This document shows positions 57,838-61,561 of a stretch of 64,000 nt of DNA, one piece after another. The position numbers and the translations under genes are program-made. This DNA comes from Anaerorhabdus furcosa (GTDB lineage Bacteria; Bacillota_I; Bacilli_A; Erysipelotrichales; Erysipelotrichaceae): assembly GCF_900167375.1 (NCBI RefSeq), contig NZ_FUWY01000001.1, positions 124,001 through 188,000 of the forward strand, given 5' to 3'. Each line of letters opens with the position of its first letter. The first letter of the stretch is position 1. The notes under the pieces are model-generated. The model worked only from the letters and a program-made list of their open reading frames with translations, did no database searches and had not been told where the DNA came from.

Positions 57838-59496
57838 TCAGACATTAGTAAGTTTCTCAATAATATCTTTTAGTTTTATTACTTCTATCTTAGATTTTTT
57901 AGAGTCGTTATCTATATAATATTTTTTATCTTCTCCACTATTTACAATTTTAAAAATATAACCTGTTTCTTGTTCAACCGCTGAAGTCATTTTTGTGCCG
58001 TCCTTTATATCATTCATAAGATCCCAGCATATAATAGTATCTACATTTTCAAAAGAATGATTAAAGCAATCTTTTTTTAATTTATACTTTAATTCTACAT
58101 AAAAATACTCACAATCTTTTAAAGGTTGATCACTATTTTTTCTAGCTAAAATATCTATCCCTTTATACGTATTATAATCAATTGGCTCGAAATTAAAATA
58201 TTCTCTTTTCAAAGTATAGAGTGAAACAAAAATCGCATATGTTTCTTGCTCATTATTAGGTTCATAAAATGAACATCCACAGAATGTTATTTTCTTTTTT
58301 TCTTCTATCCGTCTTTTTCTTGCATTAAATTCTTCTCTTTCCACCTCCATAGTTCTCTTTTCATTTTGCCATGATTTCAATGCATCTAAACAATTATTTT
58401 TATAGAGATCTATATTAATTTCTTGAATAAATTCTTTAATTTCTTCTTCTAATGCATTCAATTCCTCAACCGAAGTATTTGTTATTGATCCTCTATTTGC
58501 AGTAAGTTTAAAATGCTGTGAATTTACAAATCCATGAATCATTACAAACGAATTTGATCCGGTTCCAAAGTTAGAAATCCACTCATTCACTCGCTGCACG
58601 GGAATATAGTCTTTACACAAATAGATTCCGTATCTATCCGAAACTTTATATCTTCCTTTTTGGGTTTTCTTGGCCCCAAGCATCGGATTGTAATTTTTTT
58701 TAGCAGAATCTCCTTCAACATAGATCACAACTTCGTATTTAAAATAGGGATACTTTTCCAAGCAATCACTTTTCTCATATTTCTTAACAAAATAATCACA
58801 AGCATCAACGTCATGCAACTCAAATAATTCATTAATATTATCATTGACTTTCGGAAATCTATGACCAAATTCAAGTTTCTCATATTTATCCCGATCTAAC
58901 CCTTTTAACTTTATGATACAACTACTTAATTCAAGTTTCCCAAATTCTTTTTCAACAGATCCATGCTTAGTAAACCAATAAATATAATCTTTCACAATTT
59001 CATGCGAATACTTCGAATAATCTCTAGAATAATTTGTGAGTTTAATTCGTGTTCCTCGTTCACATTCGTGTAAACTCTTGAACTTAGGTGCATGAAGTTT
59101 TCCTCGTTTTAAGGCATCATAAGGTTTATCGCAGTAAGAGTAATAATGTTCCTCACCTGTTGATGTCCATATTTCAATTTTCTCAGACCTTAAGTAAATT
59201 TTTGTACCATGTCCTTTTTCTCCAATCTTCTCCTTATTTTCTTTAGAAGAAGAATTACCTAAGCTCCAAAAATTTTCTTTTAACATTTTTTCAGACATTC
59301 CACTGCCATTGTCTATTATTTCAATTGTAAAAATGTCTTCAGTCATCTGAAATATTAATGAAATCTCCGTCGCTCCATGATCATAAGCATTGGAAATACC
59401 TTCTCTTGTCACTTCTAAAGGATCTCCAAAATCACCTGTTATTTCACTGAATTCCCCTACACTGTTAACTTCAGGAATAATTTCTATTTCATTCAT
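57838..59496 (-). CDS. GHKL ATPase fused to a PD-(D/E)XK-like nuclease domain
   Basis: 552 residues, intact. The N-terminal Bergerat-fold ATPase (about 20-200) has its N box at REGISNAYDHGA (Glu32, Asn36, Asp39), G1 box DNGSGM (62-67), G2 loop LGNSSSK...GEKGHGTK (79-99), and GTRIKLTNY near 148. A transducer-like region with HFKLTANRGS and a helical Glu/Arg-rich linker (about 345-402) follows. The C-terminal part (about 410-550) has GIDILA (Asp448) and FYVELKYK (Glu468, Lys470), the spacing of a PD-(D/E)XK active site, then VDTIICWDL. No H box, so not a histidine kinase. It resembles MORC/MutL-like ATPases and GHKL-type restriction enzymes, but no methyltransferase is adjacent. It is probably an anti-phage or DNA-targeting protein. 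Confidence 0.8.
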   Translation of the reverse strand: MNEIEIIPEVNSVGEFSEITGDFGDPLEVTREGISNAYDHGATEISLIFQMTEDIFTIEIIDNGSGMSEKMLKENFWSLGNSSSKENKEKIGEKGHGTKIYLRSEKIEIWTSTGEEHYYSYCDKPYDALKRGKLHAPKFKSLHECERGTRIKLTNYSRDYSKYSHEIVKDYIYWFTKHGSVEKEFGKLELSSCIIKLKGLDRDKYEKLEFGHRFPKVNDNINELFELHDVDACDYFVKKYEKSDCLEKYPYFKYEVVIYVEGDSAKKNYNPMLGAKKTQKGRYKVSDRYGIYLCKDYIPVQRVNEWISNFGTGSNSFVMIHGFVNSQHFKLTANRGSITNTSVEELNALEEEIKEFIQEINIDLYKNNCLDALKSWQNEKRTMEVEREEFNARKRRIEEKKKITFCGCSFYEPNNEQETYAIFVSLYTLKREYFNFEPIDYNTYKGIDILARKNSDQPLKDCEYFYVELKYKLKKDCFNHSFENVDTIICWDLMNDIKDGTKMTSAVEQETGYIFKIVNSGEDKKYYIDNDSKKSKIEVIKLKDIIEKLTNV

Positions 59497-60039
59497 ATCC
59501 AGTTCGTCACCCTCGTTTATTAGATCATGAATTACAGTAAATTACAAGATCTTTTCCATAATTATAATCTCCTATAATACTTAAAATAACTTTAAATGCA
59601 TATGTTCTACTACCTCATTTTGAAAATATAAGATTTATCCTAAATGATTTAAATAAAACATTAGTTTAATTTTTCTTAATTATGAAAGATCTTGTTTTAA
59701 TATGAAAATCCATTAGCATGTCATTTTTACAAATTTACAACAAAAAATCAGAACTTTTGATAATATTAATTCATGTGACAGTGACAAAAGAAAGTCAAGT
59801 AGAGTTTATTCTAATATTTGCTAAATAAATAGTTCTAGCCTAATACTTCCTTTCGTATTGAGTATATAAAAAGCGGTTATTTAAAACACTCAATTTATAA
59901 TGGTAAGTCCTTGGGTTGGTAAAAAATGTATTCATTTTGCTTCTCTATAGTTAATAAAAAGCATTAGTTCTTCACTATAGCTCAACATATAATTTCATAC
60001 TTTTTATTTTTATGGTGCCATATTTTTTTAATTCTATGA
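59497..60039. other. Gene-free stretch with a decayed attachment site
   Basis: Should contain the promoter of the leftward GHKL gene. No open frame is supported. The only recognised item is the decayed tRNA-Lys 3'/terminator copy at 59868-59915, described separately. Confidence 0.5.
59868..59915 (-). repeat. Decayed copy of tRNA-Lys(CTT) 3' end plus terminator (old attachment site)
   Basis: Aligns without gaps to 61484-61531 with 39 of 48 bases equal (counted by eye). It includes the tRNA end TGGT..TCCTTGGG and the start of the flanking terminator hairpin at the same spacing. The match ends in the T-arm, so it is not functional. Confidence 0.65.
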
Positions 60040-60800
60040 TTACTTTATACAGTATCCATTTGCATTATGCAATATTTTTTCCCACCTGGTTGAAAAGTCA
60101 TATTCGTTTGGAACACAGGCACCATTCTTCTTCATAGATTCCCCTAATTTAAATACAACTCTCTCGCCTAATTTTTTATTTGGATTGAGTAACATGAGTA
60201 TGTAAATGAAATAGAATGTAGTGGAATTATCGACAGGTTCTCCATTCAAAAAATTTTCATTAACTATGGCTGGTTTGATGGTGTGCTTAAAACTAATATA
60301 AACGAGTGAAGTGGCAACATAGATTTCTAAGATATGCCGCACTATGATAAAGGCGATTCAAGTCTAAAGGACTAATATTTGAATAACCATCTATCTTTTT
60401 ATCTTTTAACTTTAAAACAGAATAAAATCTGGATATATCTCCAAATGACATTATTTCACCATTGCCCATAGCGGTATTTCACCATCATATTTATTCCTAT
60501 GATGTGCAACAATTAGATTTTTATCGTTTTTTCTGCTATATCATTCATTTTTTTAAGAATCCTTAAGCTGTCACCATAGTTGCTGTAATTATCTAAGTTC
60601 CTATATCCCATTCCACCATATTTTAATGAAAAACTATAGGAAATTTGTGTTTTCAAATATACTTCAACATCACTTATTATTTCGAATAATATACCTCTTA
60701 ATTCTTTGTCAAATTTATATATAATATACATTTTCAAAACTAACCTTATCTTTAAATTTACCACATTCATCTAAAAAATCAATCATATAGCCACTAAGCG
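60040..60800 (-). pseudogene. Abi_2 (AbiD/AbiF-like) abortive-infection pseudogene
   Basis: Pieces of an Abi_2 protein lie in several frames on the minus strand. YMIDFLDECGKFKDKVSFEN comes first (about 60740-60800). A shifted frame gives YKFDKELRGILFEIISDVE and LKTQISYSFSLKYG, then IPLWAMV before a stop. Another shift gives EIMSFGDISRFYSVLK and AAYLRNLCCHFTRLY. The frame ending at 60040 carries the C-terminus. At least three frameshifts and a missing N-terminus show it is dead. Abi_2 proteins stop phage growth by killing or arresting the infected cell. Confidence 0.78.
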
Positions 60801-60897: not shown

Positions 60898-61143
60898 ATG
60901 ACTGGCACAAATAAACATTTAACCTATGATGATCGTCTTAAACTATTATCTTTTGTTTCTAAGAATTATAGTATGTGTAAGATTGGAATGATTTTAGGTA
61001 AATCACCTTCCTCTATTTCTCGAGAATTAAAAATCAATTGTTATCGTAAATGGGTCTTCAATGACAATGATACCTTATGTACGCATGCTCGTACCTATCC
61101 AAGTATTAAACGTGGTTGCAATCAAACCTGTAAGCTTTATTAG
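60898..61143 (+). pseudogene. Truncated IS30-type transposase
   Basis: AAAGGAGG is followed by 81 codons matching the N-terminal HTH of IS30-family transposases: HLTYDDRLKLLSFVSKNYS and KIGMILGKSPSSISRELK, then the Cys-containing segment. The frame stops at 61143 without the DDE catalytic core, so only a fragment remains. It abuts integrase remains immediately downstream. Confidence 0.8.
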
Positions 61144-61151
61144 CTTGAACC

Positions 61152-61443
61152 TTGCCCTCGTTTATTAAAAGCGCCTTGGGTTTGTTTGTTGATGATGAAC
61201 CATTATCAAATACAACAATACAACGAATCTTCGATAATGGAATAAAAACCTCAGGAGTTAAAAAGATACGTATACACGATTTAAGACATTCTCACGCAAC
61301 AAACTTAATCAATGCAGGTGGCAAACATAGTAGCAGTATCAAAACGCCTAGGACACAGTGATATATCAATGACATTGCGAGTATACACACATCTAATGAA
61401 AAGAAGTGAAGATGAACTTATCGCAATATTAGAAAATAAATAA
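61152..61443 (+). pseudogene. Tyrosine integrase C-terminal fragment, frameshifted
   Basis: The first part reads TTIQRIFDNGIKTSGVKKIR then IHDLRHSHATNLINAG (catalytic His/Arg box). A frameshift near 61320 follows, and the other frame gives VSKRLGHSDISMTLRVYTHL with the second His and the catalytic Tyr, to a stop at 61441-61443. The N-terminal three quarters are missing. Such integrases (Tn916/phage type) insert at tRNA genes, and a half-tRNA lies 74 bases downstream. Confidence 0.85.
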
Positions 61444-61480: not shown

Positions 61481-61507
61481 AAAAAAAAGTGGCTATTTAT
61501 ACCACTT
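61481..61507 (-). terminator. Native terminator of the tRNA-Lys(CTT) gene
   Basis: A 6-bp stem AAGTGG/CCACTT followed leftwards by TTTTTTTT. It sits just downstream of the half-tRNA and is also preserved in the decayed copy at 59868. Confidence 0.65.
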
Positions 61508-61516
61508 ATTTTTTAA

Positions 61517-61561
61517 TGGTGACTCCTTGGGGGATCGAACCCCAGACCCACTGATTAAGAG
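61517..61561 (-). other. tRNA-Lys(CTT) 3' half: attachment-site duplicate
   Basis: 45 bases read as a perfect 3' half of tRNA-Lys with anticodon CTT: the loop from its first base (CTCTTAA), anticodon stem 3' strand TCAGT, variable loop, a fully paired T-arm TGGGG-TTCGATC-CCCCA, the acceptor 3' strand AGGAGTC and encoded ACCA. The 5' half is absent: the sequence to the right turns into unrelated A-rich DNA exactly at the anticodon loop, a common integrase crossover point. It is therefore an att site rather than a working tRNA. Confidence 0.8.

Follow-up and report, generated by a model that had tools for sequence, protein, structure and literature searches.

A paraMORC3-like GHKL ATPase-nuclease gene at a tRNA-Lys(CTT) integration hotspot of Anaerorhabdus furcosa, a candidate single-gene phage defence

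Introduction

The paraMORC3 proteins, described in 2008, join a GHKL ATPase and an S5 domain to a C-terminal restriction endonuclease (RE) fold with an E-D-ExK set (Iyer et al., 2008; PMC2292703). They are sporadic and laterally mobile, are known mainly from Proteobacteria and Bacteroidetes, show similarity to RecB-like nucleases and include a stand-alone subset (PMC2292703). More recently, VcSduA (VC_00276) of Vibrio cholerae, a Shedu type I-D protein with a GHKL ATPase that is filed in Shedu via DUF4263, was reported to protect Escherichia coli and V. cholerae from phages. The substitution E27A or K557A abolishes this protection, which indicates that ATPase and nuclease residues are both needed (PMC12137116; Nature Microbiology, 2025).

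We analyzed a stretch of 64,000 nucleotides of A. furcosa (contig NZ_FUWY01000001.1, positions 124,001 to 188,000; hereafter the window), which contains a gene of comparable layout, the target of this study. A reading of the sequence alone (the sequence-only reading) had proposed this gene as a candidate anti-phage system.

Results and Discussion

Comparison With Described Systems

Compared by published description, the target protein and paraMORC3 have in common the ATP-site motifs, the C-terminal E-D-ExK set, a sporadic distribution with lateral mobility and, for one subset of paraMORC3, the stand-alone state, and paraMORC3-like is a fitting label for the target by architecture as described. 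VcSduA and the target are alike in being single genes that encode an N-terminal GHKL ATPase, a clamp-like middle and a C-terminal PD-(D/E)XK nuclease (layout taken from the description), and the location of VcSduA on a genomic island, where it acts independently of a neighboring system, is a further likeness. Given the stand-alone paraMORC3 proteins of 2008 and the phage-blocking VcSduA of 2025, the architecture is thus not categorically new. It had also been stated that such proteins usually come with a methyltransferase or partners. In this form the statement is not supported, as stand-alone genes have been known since 2008 (PMC2292703) and VcSduA acts alone (PMC12137116).

The difference from VcSduA lies in the nuclease, which is DUF4263/SduA_C in VcSduA, whereas the target carries the signature DYxTxxGID - VE(L/F)K - HS - CW. 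Even at E values as high as 10, Pfam did not place the SduA_C model (PF14082) on the target or on any of five relatives, and the comparison of the target with a profile of four Shedu C-termini reached 1.5% in hhalign. Since SduA_C was detected neither by Pfam nor by profile comparison, the target was not filed as Shedu, and membership through SduA_C was rejected. The target nuclease could conceivably be related to SduA_C, at the level of the fold only. Shedu chains were absent from the VIA-align list for the C-terminal model, an absence that proves nothing, and a Shedu sequence (L022) found no match among PDB sequences. Judged from its sequence, the target is a protein of paraMORC3-type architecture with a nuclease domain outside the SduA_C model. 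Separately from the target, the host genome encodes a classical Shedu SduA of 405 aa (L025:844-2061; G000:C4:459225-459734).

Some homologues also gave weak matches to MzaB, TmtA or prokaryotic MORC, which are GHKL ATPases of defense systems. These ATPases are parts of multi-gene systems. An assignment to MORC proper was rejected, as the S5 motif GhXhhpXXRhl is not present: the corresponding segment, GIYLCKDYI (residues 290-298), has Ile298 in place of Arg.

Gene Integrity and Domain Organization

The open reading frame was exactly as previously delimited; it lies on the minus strand, which the sequence-only reading had left unstated, and a check of the sequence found E32, N36, D39, DNGSGM (62-67), GEKGHGTK (92-99), GIDILA (446-451) and FYVELKYK (465-472) at the residues where the sequence-only reading had placed them. 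The features of the gene are as follows.

57838..59496, minus strand: GHKL ATPase-PD-(D/E)XK nuclease gene (552 aa, intact ORF, ATG start)
59507..59514, minus strand: Shine-Dalgarno sequence GAGGGTGA, 10 nt before the ATG, read from the sequence
58867..59496, minus strand: GHKL ATPase domain, about aa 1-210 (E32, N36, D39, DNGSGM, GEKGHGTK), by Pfam PF13589 and VIA-align
58471..58866, minus strand: middle (S5-like transducer) region, about aa 211-342, by conserved blocks, with approximate boundaries that we infer
58303..58470, minus strand: long helical linker, about aa 343-398, with predicted helices 343-366 and 369-398
57841..58293, minus strand: PD-(D/E)XK nuclease domain, aa 402-552 (E416, D448, E468, K470), by model, VIA-align and invariance

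At the local base composition, 552 open codons would arise by chance with a probability of about 8e-25, and selection keeping the gene intact is plausible. PADLOC, the Pfam nuclease models and PHROG made no confident call for the protein.

Residues 30-100 matched Pfam HATPase_c_3 (PF13589) at 4.7e-9, a domain found in all six proteins scanned together (the target and five relatives). The model of the N-terminal 210 residues superposed on MutL, TRAP1, TopoVI-B and GyrB with VIA-align Z values of 14-15 (15.4 to MutL, 15.3 to TRAP1). The Pfam match, this superposition and the presence of all ATP-site motifs support the GHKL ATPase. The alignment to Hsp90/MutL spans about 270-310 columns, which includes a middle region modeled with low confidence (low pLDDT). 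This region has conserved GIYLCKD and LTANRG blocks, and we infer that it is an S5-like transducer.

The C-terminal region had been read as a PD-(D/E)XK nuclease, and the predicted fold, its nuclease neighbors and the invariance of the catalytic residues agree with this. The model of residues 402-552 (pLDDT 87, pTM 0.85) runs in the order helix, three strands, turn, strand, which is that of PD-(D/E)XK enzymes. When it was aligned by VIA-align with 994 PDB chains, the first nine rows were all PD-(D/E)XK nucleases; Z values were 5.3 for EndoMS, 5.0 for a related Pyrococcus nuclease, 4.4 for FokI, 3.9 for MspJI, 3.6 for AspBHI and 3.1 for Cap4. As these values are modest (3-5), the case was built on the agreement of the matches and on the positions of the motifs. 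Foldseek alone gave no significant match for this model, and the profile of the domain gave only chance matches among PDB sequences. Residues E412, E416, D440, D448, E468, K470, H480 and C490-W491 are invariant in 6/6 bacterial proteins, down to 23% overall identity in a protein of a Priestia plasmid, the C-terminal part of which reached 97.7% in hhalign. The E-D-ExK set of the RE fold corresponds to E416, D448 and E468-x-K470.

Distribution of the Family and the Methyltransferase Question

Full-length homologues were found in a Nitrospinales MAG (46% identical to the target protein, the nearest), on a phage-like contig of 127 kb (40%), on a Caballeronia plasmid (38%) and on a phage contig (36%). 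Among 392 genomes of the host phylum, a true member was present in one, that of the host itself; the weak matches in these genomes are shorter than 100 residues and were set aside as belonging to different GHKL proteins. A search of Nitrospinota recovered no further family member, and viral scans with the archaeal rows and with the C-terminal domain yielded no further loci. Annotated phages contained no homologue at 1e-5, and looser limits brought only GHKL matches such as RIIA. The scatter of full-length relatives and the single member in the host phylum argue for horizontal transfer, and this pattern of sequences indicates that the target gene travels on mobile DNA among bacteria that are distant from each other.

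The relatives are not consistently located in defense islands: two stand beside toxin-antitoxin pairs and two in phage-type elements. The Nitrospinales copy adjoins a Phd/PIN pair, in a small toxin-antitoxin-plus-GHKL stretch flanked by apparently chromosomal genes, and the Caballeronia copy lies beside a RelE/antidote pair on a mobilizable plasmid. The phage copy (L014:7998-9698, in IMGVR_UViG_3300027965_000183) is between a central tail fiber J-like (tail-tip) gene and an endolysin gene, and in the phage-like element a tyrosine recombinase (integrase) gene and an HTH gene are upstream of the homologue. The GHKL part of the homologue in IMGVR_UViG_3300027965_000183 also matches phrog_6203, of unknown function. 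A divergent GHKL protein of 740 aa with the same nuclease domain is encoded on Priestia megaterium plasmid p1 (L027:4288-12453), near an AspBHI-N/HNH modification-dependent enzyme and two TIR genes, with dcm 5 kb away; this stretch is likely a defense cluster.

No linked methyltransferase was found among the ORFs around the target gene, as the sequence-only reading had observed, and none adjoins the gene at the four full-length bacterial homologue loci. This bears on whether the target could be a restriction endonuclease of the HgiDII/BbrUII type, the protecting methyltransferase of which is unlinked or lost. These type II enzymes (NF050001) form the nearest NCBIfam and the best curated full-length family, and the match takes in the GHKL region and some of the one after it, a likeness of up to about 190 aa. 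In principle, the C5 and N6 methyltransferases of the host genome, both unlinked to the target gene, could serve the target protein, and an N6 methyltransferase is located about 6 kb from the Caballeronia homologue. However, the target reached 33.7 bits over residues 30-222 only, against a curated cut-off of 550 (24-45 bits across matches), and the C-terminal domain was left unmatched. Also, a sequence-specific enzyme without protection would kill its host, and a methyltransferase is adjacent at 0/4 homologue loci. We therefore consider a restriction enzyme of this type unlikely.

Setting at the tRNA-Lys(CTT) Gene

The following features were found next to the target gene.

59889..59915, minus strand: decayed third att copy, 27 bases (score 17; shuffled sequences reached at most 13)
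60513..60770, minus strand: Abi_2 fragment (profile 34-86 of 184)
60898..61143, plus strand: N-terminal fragment of an IS30-type transposase (HTH_38), 81 aa, by profile match
61152..61361, plus strand: C-terminal fragment of a tyrosine integrase (Phage_integrase profile 101-144 of 172)
61505..61561, minus strand: att copy of 57 bp from the 3' part of tRNA-Lys(CTT), a perfect repeat of G000:C2:196719-196775

Profile coverage showed that Abi_2, the IS30-type transposase and the integrase are indeed fragments, as had been reported. The 57-bp copy perfectly matches the end of the intact tRNA-Lys(CTT) gene (G000:C2:196731-196806). Immediately to the right of the decayed stretch, and extending past the end of the window, an integrative mobilizable element (IME) of 11.3 kb lies between the perfect 57-bp repeats, from window position 61505 to G000:C2:196775 (L037). 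It encodes a relaxase, a MobC/NikA-like protein, an integrase, an HTH protein and a LytTR/sensor-kinase-like pair. The locus is a tRNA-Lys(CTT) integration hotspot at which elements accrete, and the target gene lies in its older, decayed layer. The decayed mobile setting that had been described is thus real, but what was called an island is one layer of a larger accretion. A further candidate att copy near 57.05 kb scored 12, inside the shuffled range, and was discarded. In the integrase ORF of the 11.3-kb element (L037:13986-15581), only the N-terminal part matches Phage_integrase; the remainder resembles RepA/helicase-type sequence, and the detached integrase C-terminus corresponds to window positions 61152-61361.

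This setting raises the question of whom the gene serves. As cargo, it would help its own mobile element (a prophage, plasmid or IME) to exclude superinfecting competitors, rather than serve host immunity as such. The homologues in a phage tail/lysis module, near an integrase in a phage-like element and on a mobilizable plasmid are in keeping with cargo, as is the position of the target itself in an accreted tRNA-Lys site, whereas the Nitrospinales copy lies between apparently chromosomal genes. The molecular act would be identical to that of the explanation preferred below, and we regard a purely element-serving role as quite unlikely. Decay of the surrounding genes might also suggest that the target is itself decaying or, as MutL-like ATPase and EndoMS-like nuclease folds occur in mismatch repair too, that it is a DNA-repair or housekeeping factor with no part in defense. 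Yet its frame is open throughout, every ATPase and nuclease residue is intact, and its distribution, sporadic across phyla and near-absent from its own phylum, is unlike that of a repair gene, which makes this the least probable of the alternatives, and very unlikely.

Archaeal Branch

Homologues from Haladaptatus (L012:11983-13539) and Natrinema (L013:11989-13545), 28-30% identical to the target, keep the ATPase residues and have lost D448, E468 and K470. As two archaeal relatives are thus without nuclease residues, the core role of the family may be other than cutting. Each of the two genes begins just where a DpdA-like transglycosylase gene ends, and the Haladaptatus cluster, which adds DpdJ-, DpdK- and DpdC-like genes, resembles the Dpd/BRIGADE systems of haloarchaea (PMC12458937). 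In two further plasmids of haloarchaea, the genes behind a related transglycosylase are instead a hypothetical one and one for a BREX-type ATPase. Since that ATPase follows the transglycosylase there, the archaeal GHKL protein may stand in for it, a lead drawn from sequence at two loci. More broadly, we tentatively propose, as a possibility somewhat short of even, a hitherto unrecognized bacterial single-gene, methyltransferase-free defense family with its own PD-(D/E)XK domain (VELKYKL-NHSF-ICWD) and a haloarchaeal branch that stopped cutting and turned ATPase partner of a DpdA-like DNA transglycosylase in Dpd/BRIGADE-like clusters for base modification, in which one clamp would serve for destroying or for marking DNA.

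Proposed Function

The explanation we prefer, and consider probable, is that the target is a self-contained, mobile, ATP-gated clamp-nuclease that would restrict invading DNA alone, on sensing the state of this DNA. What was observed in its favor is that the gene is intact and has an ATPase site, that its C-terminal domain is predicted to fold as a nuclease and has conserved catalytic residues, that its setting is mobile and that no methyltransferase is linked to its relatives. Counting against it, the relatives are not regularly found in defense islands, the nuclease Z values are modest and Foldseek alone gave nothing significant, the middle region is modeled with low confidence, two archaeal relatives have lost the nuclease residues, and the unlinked methyltransferases of the host might serve the protein. 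By analogy with VcSduA, a precedent of the same layout, phage defense, or defense against mobile DNA, is the most likely function; the anti-phage direction first suggested is supported, and the target stands as a candidate. Upon ATP binding, two subunits would probably dimerize via their N-terminal GHKL domains, like MutL, Hsp90 and TopoVI-B, and the S5-like middle region would clamp around DNA, the presumed substrate. The long helical linker could then signal closure of the clamp to the C-terminal PD-(D/E)XK domains, which would cut DNA in a metal-dependent manner with E416-D448-E468-x-K470. Self/non-self recognition, which the sequence-only reading had singled out as a problem, is a real one, but it is not new, as VcSduA has it in common. 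We suggest that the state of the DNA (ends, replication forms or topology), rather than a methyl mark set from next door, may gate the clamp.

The target would be a compact and rare defense candidate overlooked by present catalogues. If it is active, restriction by a single protein under GHKL gating has evolved with nuclease domains of more than one kind, and the shared logic would then be the ATP clamp and not the nuclease. With the nuclease-dead archaeal relatives beside DpdA, the use of the same clamp for DNA modification and for DNA destruction becomes testable.
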